Assembly (NCBI GenBank): GCA_017937505.1
Contig: JAGBDL010000110.1
Span: 1 to 32,604, forward strand
DNA: 32,604 nucleotides
Direction of reading: 5' to 3'
Source of the DNA: Clostridia bacterium
Lineage (GTDB): Bacteria > Bacillota > Clostridia > Christensenellales > Aristaeellaceae
This document shows positions 1 through 12,852 of the stretch, piece after piece. The stretch's first letter is position 1; each line of letters begins with the position of its first letter. Both the position numbers and the translations under genes were made by a program. The notes beneath the pieces were generated by a model. The model ran no database searches, was not told the origin of the DNA, and saw nothing but the letters and a program-made list of their open reading frames with translations.

Positions 1-953
1 ACGACGGCGTATTCCCGCAGCATCGCCATGATGCACGCGCGGATTGTGCCGGGCGCCGCACCCGTCAGCGCAGTGAAAAACACGAGGAAAGCGCTCAGCA
101 CGGCAAAGCGCATCTTCCGCCCGACCGGCGCGCGTGAAAGCAGCGCGCTGACCACGCCCGCAATCATGCTCAGGTGCAGGCCGGAGACCGTCAGGATGTG
201 CGCCGTGCCCGTCAGGCGCATGGCTGCGGCAGTCTCGCTGTCCAGGCCGGACCTGTCGCCCAGCATCACGCCCCGGAACAGCGCCGCCTGCCCGCCAAAG
301 AGCGTCTCGATCTGCGCAGCGATCCCCGCGCGGAGCCGGCGCAGCCACTCGCCCGGCGAGAACCGACCCTCGCCCTGCGCCGTCCATCCCGGCAGCAGAT
401 AGCCGGAAAGCTCGTATCCGTCACAGATGGCCCGGATTCGCCAGTTCATGCCGCCCGGGTTGCGCGGCTCCTCCGGCGCAAAAAGCCGTCCCGTGCCCTG
501 CACGCGCTGGCCAACCAGGGGCTCGTCCGGCGGCATGGCGCTCTCCCCGTCCTCCCGCATCAGCGTGACGGCCACGGGCCGCGACGACGCCGCTTCGCCG
601 TCCACCGTCACGTCCGCCAGCATCACGCGGTACGGCCTGAGGATGCTCTTCACCGTGCCCTCGATGGACACGCCGGGCGCCGTCGGCAGATCGCGGCGGC
701 GCAGCGCGCTGCCCGCGCGCAGATTGCCCAGCAGCAGCATGCAGATCAGCCGGCAAAAAAGCGCGCGCTTTCGCCGCAGCAGGCGCACAGCGCCCAACGC
801 AAGCGAAAACGCGCAAAGGATCATCAGGTATTGGGGAGGAAGCATGGCGATTTCCGTCAGATAAATGCCCAGCAGATACGCGGCCGCAGCCGCCATCAGC
901 CTGCGGCGAACGGGCAGCAACACGGGCGGCTTCTGCCCGGCATGCTTCTTCAC
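1..953 (-). CDS. comEC: ComEC/Rec2-type DNA uptake channel, N-terminal part (cut by window edge)
   Basis: ComEC forms the inner-membrane channel that passes single-stranded DNA into the cell during natural transformation. The start is a GTG at 953-951 that overlaps the TGA stop of the MATE gene as GTGA. About 317 residues are in the window and the frame stays open to base 1. The N-terminus is a run of hydrophobic segments (for example LMAAAAAYLLGIYL and YLMILCAFSLALGAVRLL), followed by a DUF4131-like soluble stretch. The ComEC signature GTAHILTVSGLHLSM lies near the truncated end, followed by further membrane segments. It is the last visible gene of the glycosyltransferase operon, so it may be co-transcribed with glycan genes. 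The C-terminal metallo-beta-lactamase-like domain of long ComEC forms would lie outside the window and cannot be judged. Confidence 0.9.
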   Translation of the reverse strand, partial: MKKHAGQKPPVLLPVRRRLMAAAAAYLLGIYLTEIAMLPPQYLMILCAFSLALGAVRLLRRKRALFCRLICMLLLGNLRAGSALRRRDLPTAPGVSIEGTVKSILRPYRVMLADVTVDGEAASSRPVAVTLMREDGESAMPPDEPLVGQRVQGTGRLFAPEEPRNPGGMNWRIRAICDGYELSGYLLPGWTAQGEGRFSPGEWLRRLRAGIAAQIETLFGGQAALFRGVMLGDRSGLDSETAAAMRLTGTAHILTVSGLHLSMIAGVVSALLSRAPVGRKMRFAVLSAFLVFFTALTGAAPGTIRACIMAMLREYAV

Positions 954-2338
954 GGCTTTTGCACACTCCCCTGTCTGGCGATGCAGCGGTCAAGCCATCT
1001 GCCGCGCAGATAATAGACGATGAACATGGCGGAGGTGATGACCCAGGTGATCGGATAGCTCAGCAGCAGCACCGGCAGCTGATGCATCCTGGGCACGACA
1101 ACCGTCACCCAGAACACGCGCATCAGGCATACGCCGGTGAGCGTCATCAGCGTGGGCATCAGCGAATCGCCCGCGCCGCGCATCGCGCCGGAGAGGATTT
1201 CGATGCACAGATAGGTGATCCACGTCGGCACAATCAGGCGGATGATGGACATGCCCGTCTCCACGACGTGCGCATCGTCCGTGAACATGCCCAGCATCGG
1301 GCGGCCAACCGTCAGGATCAGCGCGCTCATGAACACCGTCACGCCGGCGGCCATGCCCAGACACACGCGCACGCTGCGGCGCATTCTGTCGTAGCGCCGC
1401 GCGCCGAAGTTCTGCCCCGCGAACGTGGTGATCGACACGCCGAACGCGCTGATCATCATCCAGTACAGGCCGTCGATCTTGCCGTACGCCGTCCAGGCCG
1501 CCATCACATCCGTGCCGAAGCCGTTGACGCTGGCCTGAATGATCATATTGGACAGCGAGTACATGACCGACTGCAATCCCGCCGGCAGGCCGATTTGCAC
1601 GATGCGCAGAAGCATGTCGCCATGGAAGCGAATCTTCCCAGCGTACAGGCGGTACACCGGCTGCGCATGGCACAGGCTGACGAGGATCAGCACCGCGCTG
1701 ACGACCTGGGAGAGCACCGTGGCAATCGCCGCGCCGCGCACGCCCATTTCAAGGCCCAGCACCAGGAGAATATCCAGCACGATGTTGGTCAGCGCCGCGC
1801 AGATGAGAAACAGCATCGGCCGCCGGGAATCGCCCACCGCGCGCAGCACGCCGGAGCCGATGTTGTACACCAGCTGCGGAATCATGCCCAGAAAATAGAT
1901 GTTCAGATACGGCAGCGCGTAGGCCATGACCTCCTGCGGCGTGCCCATCATTTCAAGGATGCCGCCGGCGCACAGCAGGCCCACCGCCGTCAGCAGCGCG
2001 CCGCTTGAAAGCGCCAGCGCGATCGTCGTGTGCACCGCGCGGGAGACGTCCTGCGCCTTTCGCGCGCCAAAGAGCTGCGCGATGATGACCGACGCGCCGG
2101 AGGCCAGGCCCACAAAAAAGCCGACCAGCAGATTGATGAGCGTGCCGGTCGAGCCGCCGACAGCCGCCAGCGCCTCCTTGCCGACAGCCTTGCCGACGAT
2201 GATCGCGTCCGCCGTGTTGTACAGCTGCTGAAAGAACGTGCCCAGCACGATCGGGAAAAAGAACAAAAGCAGCTGCTTCCAGATCACGCCCTCGGTGATG
2301 CCGTTGATATCCGGATGCTGCCTGATCAGTCTTCTCAT
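950..2338 (-). CDS. MATE family transporter
   Basis: This is an integral membrane antiporter of the MATE/NorM class in the MOP superfamily. Members export cationic drugs or metabolites using a sodium or proton gradient. I start it at ATG 2338-2336, preceded by GGAAAGGA at good spacing, giving 462 residues, the usual family length. A longer upstream frame has no similarity and overlaps the preceding gene. The N-terminus carries the typical sequence FFPIVLGTFFQQLYNTADAI, then VGLASGASVIIAQLFGAR. A second half-repeat contains LPAGLQSVMYSLSNMIIQASVNGFGTD in order, so about twelve membrane segments are expected. It follows the FrhB-like gene by 46 bp. In a glycan operon it occupies the place where a lipid-linked oligosaccharide flippase of the same superfamily would be expected. 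That role is inference, because the sequence looks like ordinary MATE rather than Wzx. Confidence 0.88.
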   Translation of the reverse strand: MRRLIRQHPDINGITEGVIWKQLLLFFFPIVLGTFFQQLYNTADAIIVGKAVGKEALAAVGGSTGTLINLLVGFFVGLASGASVIIAQLFGARKAQDVSRAVHTTIALALSSGALLTAVGLLCAGGILEMMGTPQEVMAYALPYLNIYFLGMIPQLVYNIGSGVLRAVGDSRRPMLFLICAALTNIVLDILLVLGLEMGVRGAAIATVLSQVVSAVLILVSLCHAQPVYRLYAGKIRFHGDMLLRIVQIGLPAGLQSVMYSLSNMIIQASVNGFGTDVMAAWTAYGKIDGLYWMMISAFGVSITTFAGQNFGARRYDRMRRSVRVCLGMAAGVTVFMSALILTVGRPMLGMFTDDAHVVETGMSIIRLIVPTWITYLCIEILSGAMRGAGDSLMPTLMTLTGVCLMRVFWVTVVVPRMHQLPVLLLSYPITWVITSAMFIVYYLRGRWLDRCIARQGSVQKP

Positions 2339-2384
2339 AAATCCTTTCCTTGTCCATGCGCCGCCATGCCCGGCGGCGCACGCT

Positions 2385-3578
2385 TCACCCTCTGCCCAGC
2401 AGGACGCGGACGCGCCGCAGCAGACCCTTGGGCAGATGCGCGATGCGCGCCGCGGCGCGCTCAAGCCGTCCCGGGCCGGCGAGCAGCTTCATCACATACG
2501 CGCTCTCGAAGCCCTTCCTCTTATATCGCCTGAAAAACGCCTCGCGGTTCTGATGTGGCTTCGCCGCGTGCGCGATGCTCGGGTTATCGCGCAGCAGCTT
2601 CTGCGTGCCCTCAATCGGGAAAACCGCAAGCTGCGACCGGCAGGCCTCGAATGCCTGCCTGCCCCGCTTCGTATTCAGGAACACGAGCGACATGCCCGTG
2701 TCGTCATCCGCATCGGGCGTAACCTCCTGTATGCCCCACAGATCCGCGACGGTGATGTCGGCCGGATGGTGCCCCTCGCGCATCGTCTCGCACTGCGTGC
2801 ACGACGGGCGCAGGTACAGATTCTGCAAAAAGCCGTAGAGGAACGGCTCCGTCGTCTGCTGGCCGGCATGCTCCGTGCCGTCCTCGAACGTCGCCACGGC
2901 GGAAAAGTCCTTCCAGCCCCTTCGCTTGTCGCGGAAGGTGTAGCGCACGACCCGCTGGCCATGCCTTTTCTCCAGCTCGCGCAGATACGAGGCAAACACG
3001 CCGGGCGACGGCACGCCGTGACAGACGAAATCGACCGTCAGCAGCAGGTCGCTCTCCTTCTTGCCCACGCGCGCCTTCAGGCCGCTGATCTGGCAGGGCG
3101 TGCCGGAAAAGAGCACCGGGATGCCGCGCTCCAGCAGCGCCGCTGCATGGGCGATCGCCTCCGACGCGTCGCTCTGCACATACTTGCTGCCGCGCATGCC
3201 GTCCAGCTCCGTCTCGTCAAACGCACCGATGTGCTCCACGCGCAGCGCCTCGTCAAACGCGGCGCCGAAGACCACGCCGCCCCGCTTCATCCATGCCCTC
3301 GCCAGCGCGGTGAACACGCCGCCGGAGGAGGACGCCCGGCGAAGCGCCTCGTCCCGGTTCTGCGCACCGAAGAGCTGCGGCCTGTTTTCTGCCTGCGTCC
3401 TGCCCGCCGGGCAGCGCTTCTCGCACAGGTCGCATTCCACGCAACGGGTGCCGTCGACAGCCGGATACAGGAAGCCCTCCTCGTCCGGCTGCATCGTGAT
3501 CGCGCCCCTGGGGCAGATGCTCATGCACGCGCCGCAGCCCGTGCACTCCGCCTTGCTTTTCCTGACCGTCTGTCTCAT
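2385..3578 (-). CDS. FrhB-like iron-sulfur flavoprotein (coenzyme F420 hydrogenase/dehydrogenase beta subunit family)
   Basis: This 397-residue protein begins with two 4Fe-4S ferredoxin motifs (Cys 12, 15, 18, 22 and Cys 46, 49, 52, 56). The FrhB N- and C-terminal domains follow, with family-type stretches such as SSSGGVFTALA, FSGTPCQISGLK, VDFVCHGVPSP and HPADITVADLWG. In methanogens FrhB binds F420 and flavin. In gut Clostridia and Bacteroidetes such genes recur in polysaccharide clusters beside pyruvyl transferases, where the substrate is unknown. It is 13 bp downstream of the pyruvyl transferase gene and is presumably co-translated. The start ATG at 3578 has a GGGAGAGAG site. I infer a redox step on a sugar or its pyruvyl/lipid carrier; nothing in the sequence fixes the substrate. 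Confidence 0.87.
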   Translation of the reverse strand: MRQTVRKSKAECTGCGACMSICPRGAITMQPDEEGFLYPAVDGTRCVECDLCEKRCPAGRTQAENRPQLFGAQNRDEALRRASSSGGVFTALARAWMKRGGVVFGAAFDEALRVEHIGAFDETELDGMRGSKYVQSDASEAIAHAAALLERGIPVLFSGTPCQISGLKARVGKKESDLLLTVDFVCHGVPSPGVFASYLRELEKRHGQRVVRYTFRDKRRGWKDFSAVATFEDGTEHAGQQTTEPFLYGFLQNLYLRPSCTQCETMREGHHPADITVADLWGIQEVTPDADDDTGMSLVFLNTKRGRQAFEACRSQLAVFPIEGTQKLLRDNPSIAHAAKPHQNREAFFRRYKRKGFESAYVMKLLAGPGRLERAAARIAHLPKGLLRRVRVLLGRG

Positions 3579-3591
3579 CGTCTCTCTCCCG

Positions 3592-4758
3592 TCACTTCGC
3601 CAGGTTCATCACTGCGGAGAGAATCTCCCCGCGCCCCGCCGTATAGTCCGGCATGCGCGCCGTGAGAAACGCCCGCTCCTCCTGAGCGCGCGCCCTCATC
3701 GCCTCGTACGCCGCAATCAGCTCCGCTTCGCCGCCCAGCTCCTGCACCGGGATCAGGTGCCCGGCCTCGTCGCCGAACAGATCGCGTGCGATGCCCCTGG
3801 CCTTGACCGAGTAGCCGATCACCAGCGTCGGCACGCCGGTCGAGTAGCCCGCCACCGACGCGTGCGTGCGCGCCGTCACCAGCGCCGCAAGGCGCGCGAT
3901 ATAGCCCTTGAGCTGCGGCGCGGTCAGCGCTTCGGCCTGCGGGAGCAGGAACACGCGAGGCTCGTTTTCAAACTGCGCCTTGATCCTGCCCAGCGCGTCC
4001 ATGTCGTTGTCGTGTGCCCAGAACACATGCGGGATCAGCGCCACGGCGCAGTCGCTCGTATTCAGGATGTGGCGCACCAGCCCCACAAACGCATGAAGCG
4101 TCCTGTCGCCGTCCTTCGCCCGGCTCAGAATCAGCGGGCTCACGTTGAGGCCCACCGTCTTTCCCTCGCGCCAGCCGTCCGGCAGCGGCAGCTCCTCGCG
4201 CACCATCGTGAACGCCGGATCGCACCAGCGAATCACCGGCAGGCCGGCTGCGCGCATCGCTTCCTCCGTGATCGACTCGCGCGCGACGATCAGGTCGTAG
4301 GCGCGCAGGTCGCAAAGCGTCTCGCCCTTGATGATGTCCGGCTCCACCGAGCAGCCCCACAGCACGAGCGGCTTGCCCGCGCGGCACAGGCGTCCGTTGA
4401 TCACCTGCAGATGCTCCTGGTGGCCGTAGCAGTAGGTATCCCCGCCGATGGACAGGCAGACGTCGCTTTTTTTGCCCAGATCGGTGACCGTGGCGTGCTT
4501 GCGGGCGACCTCCTGCTCGCGCGGGATGCCCAGGCGAAAGCCGATGGAATTGACGAGCCGACGCACGCTGTACGGCGCAATCTGGCTGCAAACAATCCTG
4601 TCCACGCGCTCAAGCCGCTGCGCACGATCCTCCTGCGGCGCGTCGGAGGCCAGAGAGACCGCCGCCAGGCCGTCAAAGAGCGCCGCCGTCGAGCGCACGA
4701 TCGCCTCGCAGCCGCGGTTTCCGCAGCCGCCGTGGTTGTAGAGCATGATCTGCTTCAT
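3592..4758 (-). CDS. polysaccharide pyruvyl transferase family protein (CsaB-like)
   Basis: The family transfers pyruvate from phosphoenolpyruvate to cell-surface sugars, creating negatively charged ketals. The best-known case is CsaB, which prepares wall polymers to bind SLH domains. I choose ATG 4758-4756 because it overlaps the upstream TGA as ATGA. An ATG 15 bases earlier would add five residues. The product is 388 residues. Visible family features are the N-terminal IMLYNHGGCGNRGCEAI, SIGGDTYCYG, LWGCSVEPD, the central DLIVARES, and the C-terminal VTARTHASVAGYSTGVPTLV with the characteristic R-x-H. The TGA at 3592-3594 is followed closely by the FrhB-like gene. The pairing with glycosyltransferases and an FrhB-like protein supports a surface-glycan role; the acceptor sugar is unknown. 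Confidence 0.87.
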   Translation of the reverse strand: MKQIMLYNHGGCGNRGCEAIVRSTAALFDGLAAVSLASDAPQEDRAQRLERVDRIVCSQIAPYSVRRLVNSIGFRLGIPREQEVARKHATVTDLGKKSDVCLSIGGDTYCYGHQEHLQVINGRLCRAGKPLVLWGCSVEPDIIKGETLCDLRAYDLIVARESITEEAMRAAGLPVIRWCDPAFTMVREELPLPDGWREGKTVGLNVSPLILSRAKDGDRTLHAFVGLVRHILNTSDCAVALIPHVFWAHDNDMDALGRIKAQFENEPRVFLLPQAEALTAPQLKGYIARLAALVTARTHASVAGYSTGVPTLVIGYSVKARGIARDLFGDEAGHLIPVQELGGEAELIAAYEAMRARAQEERAFLTARMPDYTAGRGEILSAVMNLAK

Positions 4759-5738
4759 CGCCTGATTCCCCATTTCCTTCCCGTCAGCTTCTCCCGGACG
4801 CGCATGAGCGTGTAAAACGCCGGGAATCCGCCCTGCCTGACCAGCCGGTACAGCCGCTTATCCTGCGGCAAAAGCCTGTCCTCCCGCACGCCGTCCATCG
4901 CAAGCGGGCGCACCCGCCTGTCAAACGTCTTCATGCACGCGCGGATGCCGCGCTCCTTCTCGTCGATCCAGACGCAGCTCTGCAAAAAGTCCCGGAAATA
5001 CCGCTCCTTCACGCCCTGCGCCAGCAGAATCGCGCTCATGCTGCGCAGCATGGGCTGATGCGCCTCGCTGTGGCCGCGGATACCCGCCATCGCCGACTGG
5101 CTGTGCACGCGGTAGACATAGGTGTAATCCGGCAGATGGGCAACCTTGTCCGCGCGCAGGAAGAGCTGCAGATTGAGCAGCGCGTCCTCGCCGATGCGCA
5201 CGCCCTCGTCAAGCCGCAGGCCGTCAAACAGCTCGCGCGCGTAAAGCTTGTTCCAGATGTTGTTGTAGATGCGGTGCATGTGAATGATCTCCCGGACGAT
5301 CTGTGCGCTTTCCTGCGCCACCGGCGGGAGATGAACCGGCATGCGCTGTCCCTTTTCCATGTCAAAGAGCGTATGATTGGCCGAGACGATCTGCGCTCCG
5401 GTGCGCGCCGCGCACTGAAACAGCGTGCGCAGGCTGTTTTCCTCCAGCGCGTCGTCCGCGTCCACGAACGCGATATACCGGCCCGTCGCCAGCGCGAGAC
5501 CCCGGTTGCGTGCGGCGGACACCCCGCCGTTTTCCGTATGGATCACCCGCGCCCGCGGCTCGACGCGCGCGAAATCATCCAGCATCGCCCCCGTCGCGTC
5601 GGTCGAGCCGTCGTCGATGAGGATCATCTGAAGCTCCGGCTCCCTCTGCGCCTTGAGGCTCTCCAGACACACGCTCAGATAGCGTCCGGCGTTATAGCAC
5701 GGCACGATGACGCTGATATCGGCCTGTGATTCACTCAT
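4755..5738 (-). CDS. family 2 glycosyltransferase (fourth of four paralogs)
   Basis: This is an inverting GT-A glycosyltransferase of 327 residues, expected to add a sugar from a nucleotide donor to a lipid-linked or surface glycan on the cytoplasmic membrane face. The nucleotide-binding fold is clear: ISVIVPCYNAGRYL (8-21), DDGSTDAT (42-49), ENGGVSAARNRGL (69-81) and the DADD metal-binding motif (93-96). The C-terminal half has the NIWNKLY and IGEDALLNLQLF segments shared with its three neighbours. The start is ATG 5738, with AGAAGGAG six bases upstream; a longer open frame upstream overlaps the previous gene and has no homology. It is separated by 20 bp from the paralog before it and overlaps the pyruvyl transferase gene by four bases. 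Confidence 0.9.
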   Translation of the reverse strand: MSESQADISVIVPCYNAGRYLSVCLESLKAQREPELQMILIDDGSTDATGAMLDDFARVEPRARVIHTENGGVSAARNRGLALATGRYIAFVDADDALEENSLRTLFQCAARTGAQIVSANHTLFDMEKGQRMPVHLPPVAQESAQIVREIIHMHRIYNNIWNKLYARELFDGLRLDEGVRIGEDALLNLQLFLRADKVAHLPDYTYVYRVHSQSAMAGIRGHSEAHQPMLRSMSAILLAQGVKERYFRDFLQSCVWIDEKERGIRACMKTFDRRVRPLAMDGVREDRLLPQDKRLYRLVRQGGFPAFYTLMRVREKLTGRKWGIRR

Positions 5739-5758
5739 GTGTACTCCTTCTTCCCGGC

Positions 5759-6691
5759 TTACGGCAGCAAAAAGCTCAATGCAGGCAGCGCACGAAGCGC
5801 CAGGTAGTACAGCTTCTGCTTGGCGGGCAGGCTGCCAAAGGCCACGTCCTTGGTGATGCGCGCCACCATGGCGCGGGAAAGCGAGCACGCCGCCTTTGCC
5901 CGTCCCCGGTCCGCCCGCAGCGTGCGGATGTAGAGATCGATGTGCGCGCGGAACAGCGGCGTCGCCAGATCGTGCGCGTCAATGAAGCGACCGATGCCCT
6001 CGATCATCGGCACGCTGCGCGCGTAAAAGTCCTTGTGGGCCCGCGTCATCGCGGAATCCCCGCCGAATTCGTAGATGTAGACGGTCTCCCCGCTCATGCG
6101 CCAGGCGCGCGCGGCGGCAAACGCGTCGAGGTTGAACAGCACGTCCTCGCCCACCTTCACGCCCTCGGGCGCGCGCACGCCGTGCGCGCGAATCAGCTGC
6201 GTGCGGTACAGCCGGGCGCACATGCTGTTGAGCGCACTGTCCCCGCGCAGAAGGCTCTCCAGCACGGTCTGTAGATCGCCGTCCGCGCAGGCGTGGTACT
6301 CCTCCCGGCCGCCCTCGTCGCGAAAGCGCATCACATACGCGCCGCAGGCGATGTCCGTTTCCTCATCAGTCAGCGACAGCAGGTGCGTCAGCGCGTGCGG
6401 CAGAAGGTGGTCGTCCGCGTCCACAAACGACAGCCACGTTCCCCGCGCCGCGTCGATGCCCGCGTTGCGCGCGGCGGACACGCCCCCGTTCTCCTGATGG
6501 ATGACGCGCATGCGCGGCTCGTCCTGCGCCAGACGGGTCAGAACGGCCAGGGTGTCGTCCCTTGAGCCGTCGTCCACGGCGATCAATTCCCAGCTTTCCT
6601 CCGTCTGCGCCTGGATGCTGCGCACGGTGCGCGCAAGCGTCCGGCCGCTTTGGTAGCACGGCATGACGATGGACACAAGCGGCCTGTTCAT
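5759..6691 (-). CDS. family 2 glycosyltransferase (third of four paralogs)
   Basis: A GT2 enzyme of 310 residues. Motifs seen are VSIVMPCYQSGRTL (6-19), DDGSRDDT (40-47), ENGGVSAARNAGI (67-79) and DADD (91-94). After the catalytic domain comes the SMCARLYRTQLI and VGEDVLFNLDAF signature shared across the tandem set. Start ATG 6691 overlaps the stop of the preceding paralog (ATGA). The stop TAA at 5761-5759 is one of the few non-TGA stops in this operon. Donor and acceptor sugars cannot be read from sequence. Confidence 0.9.
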   Translation of the reverse strand: MNRPLVSIVMPCYQSGRTLARTVRSIQAQTEESWELIAVDDGSRDDTLAVLTRLAQDEPRMRVIHQENGGVSAARNAGIDAARGTWLSFVDADDHLLPHALTHLLSLTDEETDIACGAYVMRFRDEGGREEYHACADGDLQTVLESLLRGDSALNSMCARLYRTQLIRAHGVRAPEGVKVGEDVLFNLDAFAAARAWRMSGETVYIYEFGGDSAMTRAHKDFYARSVPMIEGIGRFIDAHDLATPLFRAHIDLYIRTLRADRGRAKAACSLSRAMVARITKDVAFGSLPAKQKLYYLALRALPALSFLLP

Positions 6692-7710
6692 TGCGGCATC
6701 TCCTTCTTTTTGCGCAAGGCAAACGCGGCCTCGCCGAGCTTGCGGCGCAGCACCTGCACGGGGTAGATCAGCGGATAGACGCGCGGATACGCGCCGCTGC
6801 GGCACAGCCGCCAAAGCACGCGCGCGCTTGGAGTCAGCCGGCCTTCGTCAAGATCATCAAGCGGCAGGAGCGGCAGAACGTCCGCGTCAAACCGGCGAAT
6901 CACGCCGGCCACGCCGCCGTCCTTGTACAGCCGCAGCGCCGCGCTGTCCACGTACGCGGCAAAGTAGGCTTCCATCTGCCCGCGTCTGAGGAGCATGCCC
7001 CGCATCGTGAGCAACCAAAGCCTGTGGCGCTCCATCTCGCCCGCGGCCTGCGCGTGCATCGCGGAGGCGCCGTGCATGCGGTAGCGGTACGCCACGCGGT
7101 TCACATACGCGATGGCGCGCCCGCAGAGCACGGCCTCCAGATTGAACAGCGCGTCCTCCGCGATCTTCACGCCCGCCTGGAGCCGCAGGCCCTCGCGCTC
7201 GATCAGGGCGCGCCGGTGCAGCTTGCAGCACATGATGTTGAGCACACAGTCGCCCTCGATCAGCCGCAGCGCCGCCGCGCGCCGCTGGGCCTCGCCCCGC
7301 CTGTCCATCCAGCGCGTCTGCGGGATGACGGTTTCCAGGGGGCCGTTTTCATCAAACGTCTCGTGCGGGCAGACCACCATGTCCACATTTTCATCCGTGC
7401 CGGAGAGCATCGTCTGGAGCGCGTCCGGAGGCAGCAGGTCGTCGCTGTCCACGAATGTGATCCACTCGCCCCGCGCATGCTCAAGCCCCAGGTTGCGCGC
7501 AGCGGCCACGCCGCGGTTTTCCTGCGCCAGCACACGCACGCGAGTGTCCCTTTCGGCATACGCCTGCGCCACGGCAAGCGTGCCGTCCACCGATCCATCG
7601 TCAATCAGGATCGCTTCAAAGTCCTCCATCGTCTGCGCAAGCACGGAATCCATGCATGCGCCCAGATAGGCCTCGCTGTTGTAGCACGGGATGATGATGC
7701 TGACCTTCAC
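6688..7710 (-). CDS. family 2 glycosyltransferase (second of four paralogs)
   Basis: A GT2 enzyme of 340 residues. It starts with GTG at 7710-7708, which overlaps the stop of the preceding gene as GTGA, so translation is probably coupled. Motifs are VSIIIPCYNSEAYL (3-16), DDGSVDGT (37-44), ENRGVAAARNLGL (64-76) and DSDD (88-91), where serine replaces alanine of the neighbours' DADD. The tail has NIMCCKLHRRALI and IAEDALFNLEAV, the same architecture as the other three paralogs. It ends with a basic stretch (RKKKE), common in peripheral membrane glycosyltransferases. Confidence 0.9.
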   Translation of the reverse strand: MKVSIIIPCYNSEAYLGACMDSVLAQTMEDFEAILIDDGSVDGTLAVAQAYAERDTRVRVLAQENRGVAAARNLGLEHARGEWITFVDSDDLLPPDALQTMLSGTDENVDMVVCPHETFDENGPLETVIPQTRWMDRRGEAQRRAAALRLIEGDCVLNIMCCKLHRRALIEREGLRLQAGVKIAEDALFNLEAVLCGRAIAYVNRVAYRYRMHGASAMHAQAAGEMERHRLWLLTMRGMLLRRGQMEAYFAAYVDSAALRLYKDGGVAGVIRRFDADVLPLLPLDDLDEGRLTPSARVLWRLCRSGAYPRVYPLIYPVQVLRRKLGEAAFALRKKKEMPQ

Positions 7711-8750
7711 GGCGTATCCTCCCGTCCCTGCACAAGGCTGGCCGCGCCCTTCACGTCGCCGCGCAGCCAGCGCAGGGCAAACACGCGCGCGCGAATCTGC
7801 GTGCGCACACCCTTGTGCGTCTTGAGCGTGTACATGAGCAGCGGCATGGGCGAGATCAGCGCACGCAGCAGGCTTCTCATCGTCCCGTTGTCCCGGTATT
7901 CCTCCATCGCGCGGTGCACATCATCAAGCTCCGGGTCCAGCCGGATGCCCTTGGTGATCAGCTTGTCGTAGCAAAGCACCGGCAGCACGTCTTTGATCTC
8001 GTCAAACCGGCCGCATGTTTTCGCATATTCCCACAGCCGCACGGACAGCGTCATCAGCCGCCGGGCCAGCCGGGGCTTTTTCATGCCCATCAGCGAATCG
8101 CCGCGCTGGACATAGTACACATACGGCGTATCCAGCGCCGCAATCGTGTGCGTATGCATCAGATACTGCGCGGAAAACAGCGTATCCTCCGCGAAAATCT
8201 CGTCATTCGGCGCAAAGCGCAGGCCGTTTTCCTCGATCACGCTGCGGCGGTAGAGCTTGCTCCACGCCTCCTGACCGTGCCGATACGGCATCCAGTACCG
8301 GTAGAAATAGTTGGCGAGGCCGAGCCGGTCCACGTCGATCGTCCCGCTCTCAAAGCGCAGGTACGGCCCCTGCTCCTGTCCGTCCACGACCAGCGCGTAG
8401 TTGTAGAGCACCTGCTGCGCGCCGGTTTCATCCGCCGCGCGTACGGTTTCCTCCAGCCACCGCGGCGCAACATAATCGTCCGCATCAACGAACGCGATGT
8501 ACTCGCCCCGCGCCGCATCAAGCCCCGCGTTGCGCGCGGAGGACAGGCCGCCGTTCTCCTTGTGGATCTGGCGGATGCGGCCGTCGCGCTGCGCGTACGC
8601 CTGCATGATCGCCGGACAGCCGTCCTTCGTGCCGTCGTCAACCAGGATCAGCTCGAAATCGGCAAACGTCTGCGCCAGAATGCTGTCGAGGCATTTCGGC
8701 AGATACGCCTCCACCTGATAGACCGGCACAATCACGCTCACACGGCACAT
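7707..8750 (-). CDS. family 2 glycosyltransferase (first of four paralogs, first gene of the operon)
   Basis: A GT2 enzyme of 347 residues. Motifs are VSVIVPVYQVEAYL (4-17), DDGTKDG (38-44), ENGGLSSARNAGL (65-77) and DADD (89-92). EAWSKLYRRSVI and FAEDTLFSAQYL follow in the C-terminal half. The start ATG 8750 has a GGGAAG site and lies about 40 bases downstream of a good promoter (8794-8823), making this the first gene of an eight-gene unit that runs to comEC. It likely adds an early sugar of a surface glycan, but gene order does not prove reaction order. Confidence 0.9.
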   Translation of the reverse strand: MCRVSVIVPVYQVEAYLPKCLDSILAQTFADFELILVDDGTKDGCPAIMQAYAQRDGRIRQIHKENGGLSSARNAGLDAARGEYIAFVDADDYVAPRWLEETVRAADETGAQQVLYNYALVVDGQEQGPYLRFESGTIDVDRLGLANYFYRYWMPYRHGQEAWSKLYRRSVIEENGLRFAPNDEIFAEDTLFSAQYLMHTHTIAALDTPYVYYVQRGDSLMGMKKPRLARRLMTLSVRLWEYAKTCGRFDEIKDVLPVLCYDKLITKGIRLDPELDDVHRAMEEYRDNGTMRSLLRALISPMPLLMYTLKTHKGVRTQIRARVFALRWLRGDVKGAASLVQGREDTP

Positions 8751-8793: not shown

Positions 8794-8823
8794 ATTATAC
8801 CATACGATACAAGGTCATGACAA
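8794..8823 (-). promoter_or_regulatory. sigma-A-type promoter of the glycosyltransferase-comEC operon
   Basis: Read on the minus strand, TTGTCA (8823-8818) is separated by 18 bases from a perfect TATAAT (8799-8794). Transcription would begin near 8787, about 37 bases before the first glycosyltransferase start. No other convincing promoter occurs inside the tightly packed operon. Confidence 0.65.
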
Positions 8824-9082: not shown

Positions 9083-9134
9083 CAACAAAAGCAGCGGCAC
9101 TCCGCCAGGAACACCGCTGCTCATTTTGTTTTTT
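9083..9134. terminator. two-way intrinsic terminator after the ROK-SIS gene
   Basis: AGCAGCGG (9090-9097) and CCGCTGCT (9114-9121) form a perfect 8-bp stem around a 16-base loop. A-rich sequence precedes it and TTTTGTTTTTT follows it on the plus strand, so it can act in both directions. On the minus strand it lies about 110 bases past the ROK-SIS stop. Confidence 0.7.
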
Positions 9135-9244: not shown

Positions 9245-10891
9245 TTATGCAAAGAATTTCGCTTCCAGCATGGCGCAGAGGGTGTGGCAAATCGGCACAT
9301 GCATCTCCTGCACTTCAGCCGTACAGTGTCCGGGTACAACGATTGCAGAATCGCAAAGCTGCGCCATGCGTCCGCCCGTTCCGCCCGTGAGACAGATCGC
9401 GCGCATGCCCAGCGCCTTGCCGGCGGCGATTGCAAGCAACACATCCTTCGCGTTTCCGCTGGTGCCGATGCCCAGGAGCACATCGCCCTTGCGTCCATAG
9501 GCAACGGTCTGCTGCGCCATGGAAAGATACGCGCCGCAGTCGTTCTCAGCAGCCGCTGAAACGGCTGCCTGTCGTGTCAGGGCAATCGCAGGCAGGCCCT
9601 GCTGCATGGCCTTGGCGCTGCCGGGCAGTATCGCGTCCATATTCCGGCTGAGCGCTTCAAGCCGGGCGCCATGAAACCGTCGCGGCAGGGAAGATCCCTT
9701 CACCAGTTCTCTGGCAATGCGCTCGCCGTCCGCGCAGCTGCCTTCCTCGCCGCAGATCAGCAGCTTTCCGCCGTCCTGATAGCAGTCCCGCATGATCAGA
9801 TACGTATCCATGATCTGTTCTCTGCATCCTTCAAGCTGCGGATACTGCTCAAACAGGCGATTGTAGTGCGCCATCACCTCGGGCTTCCGCTCGTCTCCGT
9901 GCGTCAGCGGGTCAATTCCCAGGTTATACAAAGCCACCATGATGCTGGCCAAATCCCCGATCGCCTCGCCTGTCTGCGCAGGCACAACCCGAAGCCCCTC
10001 CAGCGAGAAGGGAATGGCTTCCGCCTTCAGCTCGGCTTCCATAGCGGGGCGCAGCAGTTCTTCACAGCGCACAAATATGCTGCCGATCGTCACAACCTCC
10101 GGATTGAAGGCATCCACCAGCATGGCCACCGTCCTGCCCAGCATCCTGCCGATATGATTCCAGAAGCGGATCGCGTCTTCATCCCCACGGCGGGCACAGT
10201 CCGCCATCACCTTGACGTCCAGTTCTTCAATGCTGTTTACATCATTCATCCAGGCAGGGATTTGCCCCCTGCTCATCATGTCCTTCGTCCATGCCATGGC
10301 CTGATGGCGGATCGCCTCGCCGCTGGTGTATCCCTCCACGGAGCCAGCCTTGCCAAACCCCACAGGCCCATCATCCGTCAGGCGAAGGTGGCCAATCTCG
10401 CCGCCCATATCCGTATGACCGCAAAGCAGCCTGCCTTCAACAATCATGCCGCCTCCCATGCCGGTTCCCATCGTCAGGAAGATCATGTTGGAGGTGTTGC
10501 GTCCGGCGCCCAGCTTCCATTCAACCAGGGCACAGGCGTTGGCGTCATTCTGCAGAAAAGCCTGAATGCCATACTTTTCTTCCAGCATGCGGGTCAGCGG
10601 AATGTTCACCCAGCCGCGAAGATGGGGCGGGCACAGCACAATGCCGTGGCGGGCATCGAGCGGGCCGCCGCAGCTGATGCCAATGGCATCAATGTCCCGC
10701 GGGGTCAGCCGATGGGCCGCCAGAATCGCATCAATGCCCTCGCAGAGCTTGCCCCAGGCATAGTCAAATCCCTTGTCAACACATGTGGCAAAACGGATTT
10801 TATCCGTGATCACGATGCCGTGGTTCACCTCGGCCAATAACACGCAGCACTTTGTTCCGCCGATATCCAGGCCAATGTATTTCTTTTCCAT
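9245..10891 (-). CDS. fused ROK-family sugar kinase and GmhA-like SIS isomerase
   Basis: One uninterrupted 548-residue frame joins two enzymes. Residues 1-325 are a ROK sugar kinase, with the phosphate-binding GLDIGGTK (7-14), GISCGGPLD (71-79), catalytic Asp116 in QNDANAC, GTGMGGGMI (142-150) and GEIGH (164-168). Residues about 345-548 are a SIS domain close to sedoheptulose-7-phosphate isomerase, with GGKLLICGEEGS (374-385), KGDVLLGIGTSGN (468-480), LTGGTGG (501-507) and EVQEMHVPICHTLC (526-539). The expected products are a sugar phosphate made by the first half and isomerised by the second. Two departures from the families are visible. The usual CxCGxxGC zinc cluster of ROK proteins is replaced by GFGKAGS (178-184), and the SIS position usually held by a metal-binding histidine is Arg391. 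The start ATG 10891 has GGGAGGAA upstream. It is the only intact gene of its locus. Confidence 0.88.
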   Translation of the reverse strand: MEKKYIGLDIGGTKCCVLLAEVNHGIVITDKIRFATCVDKGFDYAWGKLCEGIDAILAAHRLTPRDIDAIGISCGGPLDARHGIVLCPPHLRGWVNIPLTRMLEEKYGIQAFLQNDANACALVEWKLGAGRNTSNMIFLTMGTGMGGGMIVEGRLLCGHTDMGGEIGHLRLTDDGPVGFGKAGSVEGYTSGEAIRHQAMAWTKDMMSRGQIPAWMNDVNSIEELDVKVMADCARRGDEDAIRFWNHIGRMLGRTVAMLVDAFNPEVVTIGSIFVRCEELLRPAMEAELKAEAIPFSLEGLRVVPAQTGEAIGDLASIMVALYNLGIDPLTHGDERKPEVMAHYNRLFEQYPQLEGCREQIMDTYLIMRDCYQDGGKLLICGEEGSCADGERIARELVKGSSLPRRFHGARLEALSRNMDAILPGSAKAMQQGLPAIALTRQAAVSAAAENDCGAYLSMAQQTVAYGRKGDVLLGIGTSGNAKDVLLAIAAGKALGMRAICLTGGTGGRMAQLCDSAIVVPGHCTAEVQEMHVPICHTLCAMLEAKFFA

Positions 10892-10950: not shown

Positions 10951-11780
10951 TTACAGCGCCTCATGCACCATCTCCGGGCCATCGGCGGTATAGCAAACCT
11001 CTCCGCGCATCGTTTTCAGAGAGAAACGCAGGCTGCAGCAGCTCGCATACTTGCGCCAGGTGAATTCGATCTCTCCGTTTTCCTCATAGCGATCAAAGAA
11101 ATCCCCGCTGAAGGCAGGGTGCCTCCGCTTCAGCCGGATCAGGCGAATCACGCGCTGCACCTCGGGCCGCGTTTTTTCGCCACATAGCCCACCGCGTCAA
11201 GACGGATATACCGGATCCCGTGAGCCTGCATGTCATCGAGCAGATCCGTAAAGTAGGCCCGAACCTGGGGGCAGGTGATGTCCAGGTCGATCTGTTCAGA
11301 CGGATCCGTCGCGCCAAAGGTCGTCCACAGTGTGACCTTCCGTCCATCCTTGCGGGTATACGTGGAGTAGTGACACGAGCGGCGCAGCAGCACAGCCTTC
11401 TCTTCCCCGAGCGTAGGCGGCGCATCACCCCACACCTTCTGCGGCGTGATGAAAAAATCGGCGTAGGCGGAATCATCGCCCTTTTCCAGGTAATCCCTGA
11501 AGAACGGCGAAAGCCGCGATACATGATCGACCATGATGTTAAGCATCACATCATAGTCCCTGGCCAGCGCAGCCATATCATCCCAGGTGCCAAAGGACGG
11601 TTCTATCACCGCGTAATCGATAGGTGCAAAGCCGCGGTCGCCGGACGAAAGAAAGGGAGGCAACACATGCACGCCCGTAAACAGCCCGCTGAGCGAATGA
11701 TTCAGCACCTGATGAAGGGCGGCAAGGCTTCCGCCCATGGAGTCTGCATAGGTGATCAGCTATACCTGATTCCGTTCCAT
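10951..11780 (-). pseudogene. sucrose phosphorylase-like GH13 enzyme, inactivated
   Basis: The intact relatives are GH13 subfamily 18 phosphorylases of roughly 490 residues that cleave sucrose or a related glucoside with phosphate. Three lesions are visible. The natural start ATG 11780 reads MERNQV and then an in-frame TAG (11762-11760), exactly where relatives have glutamine before LITYADSMGG. From there the frame is good for about 200 residues (HVLPPFLSSGDRGFAP, FGTWDDM, VDHVSR, DPSEQIDLD) up to the catalytic nucleophile in RLDAVGYVAKK. At about 11165-11185 the sequence jumps out of frame to the C-terminal end of the enzyme (EVQRVIRLIRLKRRHPAF), so roughly 220 codons are deleted and the frame shifts. 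It ends at TAA 10953-10951, 59 bp before the ROK-SIS start. Confidence 0.85.
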
Positions 11781-11801: not shown

Positions 11802-12047
11802 TTAAACCGATTGCCGGATAATCAGCTTGTGAGCAACGATGATATTCCGCTCATCGGAGGTTTTTCGGATGATGTCAATCAGAAGATTGACAGATTCTCT
11901 GCCCAAAGCAATACGATCCTGCGCAACCGTGGTAAGCGGCCCAGGGACATATCCGCTCAACGTGATCTTGTCAAAGCCGATGATGTCCACTTCTCTGCCC
12001 ACGGCACTCCGATGAGCCAGCAGAGCGGTTTCCGCACCGACGGCCAT
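11802..12047 (-). pseudogene. LacI/GalR-family regulator, C-terminal fragment
   Basis: About 80 codons encode the end of a LacI-type sugar-binding domain: AVGAETALLAHRSAVGREVDIIGFD, then LSGYVPGPLTTVAQDRIALGRESVNLL and a C-terminal VAHKLIIRQSV. The DNA-binding headpiece and most of the sensor domain are missing. Just upstream the expected ANDLMAVGA can be restored by adding one A and one T (GCCATGATTGATG against GCCAATGATTTGATG), so two single-base losses broke the frame before the large deletion or after it. The fragment abuts a GH38 stub, and the two share TGATG. It would have regulated the neighbouring sugar genes when whole. Confidence 0.75.
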
Positions 12048-12190
12048 CAATCATGGCGATAGGCTTTTCTATGGTCAGCAGCTAGTACAGAACGGAATGC
12101 TGCACGGGCCGCTTCATATCCATCCTGCCAGCGCCACAGCCAGACCGGATCCAGATGCGCGTTGCCGATCATATAGCGCACCTTCTTCAT
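12047..12190 (-). pseudogene. alpha-mannosidase (GH38) N-terminal stub
   Basis: A 47-codon frame from ATG 12190 reads the start of a GH38 enzyme: YMIGNAHLDPVWLWRWQDGY, then EAARAAFRSVL. The HLDPVWLW and RSxL positions match the catalytic-domain opening of bacterial alpha-mannosidases and mannosylglycerate hydrolases, which are about 900-1000 residues long. Similarity stops after about residue 36, and the frame runs into LacI-derived sequence and a TGA. A deletion therefore removed almost the whole enzyme and the front of the regulator. A promoter-like sequence still stands upstream (12221-12251), and AGAGG precedes the start. Confidence 0.75.
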
Positions 12191-12220: not shown

Positions 12221-12251
12221 ATAATATGCAGCAAGTCTCAACTTTTGTCAA
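12221..12251 (-). promoter_or_regulatory. promoter-like sequence of the decayed sugar locus
   Basis: TTGACA (12251-12246) and TATTAT (12226-12221) lie 19 bases apart on the minus strand, 31 bases before the GH38 stub start. The spacing is long, so the promoter may be weak. If it is active, it could still transcribe the ROK-SIS gene through the remnants. Confidence 0.4.
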
Positions 12252-12510: not shown

Positions 12511-12852
12511 GTCTGTGAGCGTTGCCTGTAAGCCGAGTTCTGTAATCGGCGGTCATCTATCTAGACCCGTTGTTGCCAACGGGTTCAAGCGAAATCCTGA
12601 GAGCTCGACGGGCCGTCTCAAACGCTCTTTCGTTTCTTGCTGCGAGTGGGGTTTACATCGCGGACGAGTCGCCAGGCCGCGGGTGAGCTCTTACCTCACC
12701 TTTCCACCCTTACACGCCTTGCGGCGTGCGGTATCTCTCTGTTGCACTTTCCCTGGGGTCGCCCCCGCCGGGCGTTACCCGGCACTCTGCCCTATGCAGC
12801 TCGGACTTTCCTCACACCTTCCGGCGCGCGGCCGCCCGGCAGCCTCACAAAC
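12511..12852 (-). ncRNA. rnpB: RNase P RNA (bacterial type A)
   Basis: This is the catalytic RNA that removes 5' leaders from precursor tRNAs. On the minus strand the conserved GAGGAAAGTCCGAGCT (12813-12798) is followed by GGGAAAGTGCAACAGAGAG and GGTGGAAAGGTGAGGTAAGAGCTCACC (read in two parts). The 3' conserved region TAGATAGATGACCGCC and ACAGAACTCGGCTTA comes after that. The 5' GTTTGTGAG and 3' CTCACAGAC ends pair to form helix P1, which sets the ends within a few bases. A perfect consensus promoter and a downstream hairpin terminator frame it. The helix layout looks like the ancestral type A, but I did not fold it. Confidence 0.96.

Follow-up and report, generated by a model that had tools for sequence, protein, structure and literature searches.

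Many ROK proteins, although not all of them, carry a zinc-binding motif, CxCGxxGC. The isomerase GmhA interconverts sedoheptulose-7-phosphate and D-manno-heptose-7-phosphate, a C1–C2 change on a sugar with one carbon more than the pair mannose-6-phosphate/fructose-6-phosphate. Fused enzymes are also known: in the human protein GNE (UDP-GlcNAc 2-epimerase/ManNAc kinase), a ROK kinase is fused to the enzyme of a neighbouring step, and in the GmhA pathway the heptose kinase/adenylyltransferase HldE is a fusion as well. In B. pseudomallei, the zinc ligands of GmhA are H64, E68, Q175, and H183; mutating any of them lowers activity, and 14% of it is left in H64Q (PMC5705639). The SIS enzyme NagS, a GlcNAc-6-phosphate dehydratase, was considered as a parallel and set aside, because its paper puts it near MurQ and not GmhA. 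In the open-access literature and the sequence and structure databases used, to which this comparison was confined, no paper on a ROK–SIS pair was found, nor anything relevant that links a ROK mannose kinase to mannosidases or to N-glycans.

The window, as we call the whole 32,604-nucleotide stretch analysed here, contains a genuine ROK kinase joined to a GmhA-type SIS domain, both of full length (Table 1). The open frame, Pfam, the PDB, and Foldseek all agree with the single 548-codon frame of the original prediction, which had not given its strand (-). The ATG is preceded by GGGAGGAATCCTCT, a GGGAGG sequence. The whole frame is free of internal stops, and between residues 325 and 345, where a stop or frameshift would have parted the two domains, there are zero stops and zero frameshifts. 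The encoded protein passes the Pfam gathering thresholds for ROK (residues 5–309, E 3.5e-43, 148.6 bits against 22.9), SIS_2 (PF13580; residues 424–503, E 2.6e-10, 40.9 bits against 27), and SIS (PF01380; residues 461–522, 30.8 bits against 25), and its separate parts match the ROK glucokinase 3vov (4e-32) and the phosphoheptose isomerase 1tk9 (5e-28) in the PDB. Similarly, the AlphaFold monomer (mean pLDDT 89.3, pTM 0.63) supports the two folds while leaving the orientation of the domains unfixed; with Foldseek, its first part resembles ROK kinases (target TM 0.83–0.87 for the better ones) and its second part GmhA (0.79–0.84). The genome assembly is fragmented (198 contigs), which could favour the wrongful joining of two separate genes, but this explanation has practically no chance of being right: it is refuted by 23 further fusions that share the architecture and have linkers of comparable length.

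Table 1. Features of the fusion locus, in positions of the window.
Feature	Position	Strand	Details
Terminator-like stem, after the fusion gene	9089..9122	(-)	15 pairs
ROK–SIS fusion gene	9245..10891	(-)	548 codons; ATG at 10891, TAA stop 9245-9247
GmhA-type SIS domain	9248..9871	(-)	Residues ~341-548
Ser of ISTSG in relatives, Gly here	9464..9466	(-)	Residue 476; S476G
GNGGSxADxEH of relatives, GEEGSCADGER here	9719..9748	(-)	Residues 382-391; N382E, G383E, H391R
Linker	9872..9925	(-)	Residues 323-340; pLDDT 67 at 331-340 (low model confidence)
ROK kinase domain	9926..10891	(-)	Residues ~1-322
Sucrose-phosphorylase-like (GH13_18) remnant	10951..11738	(-)	Two pieces, internal deletion
LacI-type regulator, C-terminal fragment	11802..12047	(-)	Last 81 codons; Peripla_BP_3 model positions 86-167
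GH38 alpha-mannosidase, N-terminal fragment	12056..12190	(-)	~43 codons
Promoter-like site TTGACA-17-CATATT, upstream of the GH38 remnant	12223..12251	(-)	Consensus match only
RNase P RNA (rnpB)	12512..12847	(-)	Last element common to same-genus genomes before the variable segment

At least 24 fused ROK–SIS genes, from about 15 genera, are found in one clostridial family and its near kin. Counts of loci here are not independent, some rows being near-copies, and many of the genomes are metagenome assemblies. In the family of the window, 25 of 308 genomes have a match at E <= 1e-100. Full-length fusions account for 23, the window's own included, and the remaining two are unfused: in G053 the match is confined to the ROK half, and in G346 an in-frame stop separates the two genes. 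Named Clostridia contigs supply two more, L057, where the contig end truncates the gene, and L059; the same-genus genomes searched yielded no fusion. In a tree of 85 concatenated rows, 24 fusions lie on one side of one branch (support 96), and the fusion clade recurs in a tree built with more care from 35 rows (100/97). Since these fusions form one clade, the fusion event happened once. The closest unfused row to this clade is the SIS–ROK pair of G053, which lies inside an ABC transporter–GH38 operon. Kinase and isomerase are normally separate, as originally proposed, in that an unfused adjacent pair is usual elsewhere, yet the fusion is not unique and the domains are not always apart in relatives of the window gene.

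Relatives in public genomes were sought with an alignment of the ROK rows alone; genes in the other loci were called with our own codon-score script, and neighbours were assigned by BLAST to representatives checked by Pfam. A same-strand SIS gene adjoins the ROK relative in 59 of 80 named loci (46 ROK–SIS, fusions included, and 13 SIS–ROK). Unfused, the two genes form a conserved neighbouring pair, in either order, and 61 such pairs were collected across Bacillota, Bacteroidota, and Spirochaetota. Of these 61, 34 have a mannosidase (GH38, GH2, or GH92) no more than 7 kb away, against 2 of 23 fused copies (Fisher p 7e-5, the loci not being fully independent). GH38 was present in 20 loci of unfused pairs, where about 0.3 were expected in the 0.75 Mb examined; the background of 0.38 per Mb was taken from 60 clostridial relatives, which makes the size of the enrichment a rough figure, though clearly a large one. 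Gene orders include ABC transporter, GH38, SIS, ROK (G053), GH38, GH2, ROK, SIS (G043), and, in Bacteroidota, LacI, ROK, SIS, GH38 or GH2, MFS, GH92. The GH38 neighbour matches Ams1-type alpha-mannosidases, and the GH2 neighbour is a relative of beta-mannosidase (5n6u, E 4e-93), with a better match, 9nfe, named just “glycoside hydrolase family 2.”

Because mannosidases adjoin the unfused pairs, the best reading of the system is mannose to mannose-6-phosphate to fructose-6-phosphate, a substrate and reaction suggested by gene context, less strongly for the fused copies; mannose had already been named among the suggested sources in the original prediction. The mannosidases would release mannose from mannosides, the ROK domain would use ATP to phosphorylate O6 of the free hexose, which is most likely mannose, and the GmhA-type SIS domain would convert the resulting mannose-6-phosphate to fructose-6-phosphate, that is, an aldose 6-phosphate to a ketose 6-phosphate. 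As the C1–C2 chemistry is the same, a GmhA-type enzyme would be chemically apt for mannose-6-phosphate. A type I mannose-6-phosphate isomerase (ManA type) is encoded in 21 of 23 fusion genomes, so the SIS domain need not do that job, and may serve another sugar or travel with the operon; for the same reason, absence of ManA was rejected as support for a role of the SIS domain. Other points against mannose are the rarity of mannosidases beside the fusions and the different operon logic in Bacilli and in a module of PfkB and HAD genes. In Bacilli and their kin (L060, L066, L068, L095, L104, L112, L123), SIS–ROK operons also encode a DUF1537-type kinase (SBD_N/NBD_C) together with a class II aldolase, to which some add a fructose-bisphosphate-type aldolase and a racemase. 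The DUF1537-kinase and aldolase genes suggest a second catabolic branch beside that of the mannosidases.

The PfkB–HAD module lies by ROK–SIS genes in L164 (the same as L058; 6216–8930), L057 (2243–5121), L163 (10203–12984), L071 (13613–16788), and L115 (10675–13731), and in partial form in L097 and L176. The best solved relative of its PfkB kinase is the heptose-7-phosphate kinase 4e84. The third member of the module is a conserved protein of about 320 aa that gave no clear sequence match in Pfam or the PDB; a model of it, of low confidence, is similar to deoxyhypusine synthase and to the C-terminal part of ArgZ/AgrE. Fusions within the module also occur, of PfkB with HAD in Bacteroidota and of HAD with the ~320-aa protein in L163. 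These neighbours, together with the likeness of the SIS domain to GmhA above all, would fit a salvage of heptose in which the ROK domain phosphorylates D-manno-heptose and the SIS domain makes sedoheptulose-7-phosphate for the pentose phosphate pathway. We regard this as unlikely, as most contexts hold mannosidases and not heptose pathways, the full module was seen in just 5 distinct loci of about 120 examined, and no nucleotidyltransferase was seen. It is also improbable that ROK–SIS forms the core of an undescribed pathway in which a fused kinase–isomerase hands its product to the PfkB kinase, the HAD phosphatase, and the deoxyhypusine-synthase-like protein, with a heptose or manno sugar processed via a bisphosphate.

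Remnants of a GH38 alpha-mannosidase, a LacI regulator, and a GH13 phosphorylase are present beside the window gene, as first reported, and all lie upstream of it. The glycerate glycoside also put forward as a source is not retained, since its basis was only sub-threshold GH38 matches to mannosylglycerate hydrolase. Full-length counterparts are found with other fusions: a full-length GH38 precedes the fusion in L159, and full-length GH13 homologues follow it in L157 and L161 (Candidatus Limiplasma), where the operon reads LacI–ABC–SBP–MBL fold–fusion–GH13 and the GH13 exceeds the sucrose phosphorylase cut-off. L157 and L161 are among the closest fused relatives of the window gene, so the substrate of the pair could be fructose or a different sugar released by the sucrose-phosphorylase-like GH13, with the SIS domain working in reverse or on another ketose or aldose phosphate. 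This seems improbable, however, as the GH13 operon occurs in only 2 of 23 fused loci and fructose-6-phosphate requires no isomerase.

Several same-genus genomes share a DUF5655 gene, and the same-genus genomes share a zinc-ribbon gene and rnpB, after which other sequence follows. GC3 is 0.70–0.72 in the fusion gene and the GH13 remnant, against 0.83–0.88 in genes of the glycosyltransferase cluster to one side and 0.78–0.91 in housekeeping genes to the other. Gene content and composition of this kind indicate that the operon was probably acquired horizontally, from another genus of the family, and is probably now decaying; the copy would have arrived as part of a short operon for glycoside use (GH38, LacI, and GH13 phosphorylase) that inserted after rnpB. 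All 548 codons of the frame can still be read through, so decay is probable rather than proven.

A surface polysaccharide cluster occupies positions 950–8750 of the window, with four GT2 glycosyltransferases, a polysaccharide pyruvyl transferase, an FrhB-type protein, and a MATE/flippase. A search of the same-genus genomes did not find it behind rnpB, and it is therefore probably part of the variable segment. Cotranscription of the fusion gene with this downstream cluster is unlikely, given the terminator-like stem (Table 1) and a promoter-like site (8794–8823) between them. In G048 (L051, 501–2350), an unfused ROK–SIS pair lies directly downstream of rnpB and a dnaG–rpoD block, matching the site in the window; either the pair is ancestral in G048 or this site has been used repeatedly.

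The two halves of the window protein differ in their state. For the SIS domain, called complete in the original prediction, the fold stands, but in the active site positions that are conserved in every other fusion have changed, namely those given in Table 1 and Y535C. Residue 391, equivalent to the zinc ligand H64 of GmhA, is Arg in place of His; the four ligand positions read R391, E395, Q528, and H536, three of the four being kept, whereas H, E, Q, and H are all present in the other fusions. Compared with 24 other rows, 14 of 70 conserved SIS positions are changed in the window, the next highest being 7 of 74, and the proportion exceeds that in its ROK half (8 of 99; Fisher p 0.035). On a fixed tree, the end branch of the window is 0.74 for SIS and 0.35 for ROK, a ratio that is the highest among the fusions. 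These active-site substitutions and the long SIS branch make it very likely that isomerase activity has been lost. The coupling of phosphorylation to isomerisation, as first envisaged, is accordingly not upheld for the window copy, its isomerase active site being degraded, and fusions are in any case rarely found by mannosidases (2 of 23).

In the kinase half, the ROK motifs are unbroken: DIGGTK, N115-D116, G142-T-G144, and E165-x-G-H168. The residues N115-D116, G142-T-G144, and E165-G167-H168 are invariant in alignment A3, and the catalytic Asp, GTGxGxG, and ExGH are all in place. The CxCGxxGC motif is missing, with GFGKAGS instead and mostly GYGKxGS in the unfused relatives; the whole ROK clade does without it and has GYGKxGSFEGFCSGGG in its place (for example, in A2 columns around G175–S190). 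The 8 changes at 99 conserved ROK positions are more than in most fusions. In this probably decaying operon, the kinase half still has the motifs for catalysis and the isomerase half is very probably inactive, so that, judging from these residues, the window copy probably keeps at most a kinase.

The fusion of G057 (L037, 10691–12340) is a mirror image of the window copy, with an intact SIS half and a kinase half in which NDANA has become NKADA, GTGxGAG has become DTGMDTG, and GEVGH has become GEAGR; the catalytic Asp and the glycine motifs are gone. This mirror case, along with the fully open frame, the well-predicted SIS fold, and the unbroken kinase motifs, would suit a repurposed single-function kinase whose SIS half is retained as a scaffold or phosphosugar sensor and is not decaying. 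We find this rather unlikely: the loop changes GEEGS and GTSG speak against phosphosugar binding, the neighbouring genes are wrecked, and conserved positions of the ROK half are changed as well. On balance, we favour a mannose kinase–isomerase family derived from a one-off fusion, of which the window copy would be an acquired, decaying member that has very probably lost its isomerase. If this is true, gut and soil bacteria using mannosides would have a second route from mannose to glycolysis, with a GmhA-type isomerase replacing ManA, and such SIS genes should not be named “phosphoheptose isomerase.” The window copy, with its degraded isomerase, and the G057 copy, with its degraded kinase, form a natural pair for the loss of one function in fused enzymes.

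Compared with known systems, the kinase half shares its fold, ATP-binding and catalytic motifs, and ExGH sugar-binding motif with ROK sugar kinases (glucokinase 3vov, TIGR00744; NanK). The window clade differs from these in being fused to SIS and lacking CxCGxxGC, and TIGR00744 scores 149 bits against a cut-off of 260. With GmhA (SIS_2), the second half shares the SIS fold, and GmhA proteins are its closest solved structures; the other fusions keep the zinc ligands, whereas the window copy is without the His ligand. The NCBIfam model TIGR00441 gives 119.4 bits, below its cut-off of 209.45, and the intact relative G029 is also below it, at 127.8. In addition, the SIS domain sits C-terminal to a kinase, and the context of the unfused relatives is glycoside catabolism and not LPS or S-layer synthesis. 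The kinase domain of GNE is among the PDB matches of the window protein, but there an epimerase takes the place of SIS and precedes the ROK domain. In HldE, finally, the kinase is of the PfkB type and acts after GmhA, whereas the ROK kinase is here placed before the isomerase.
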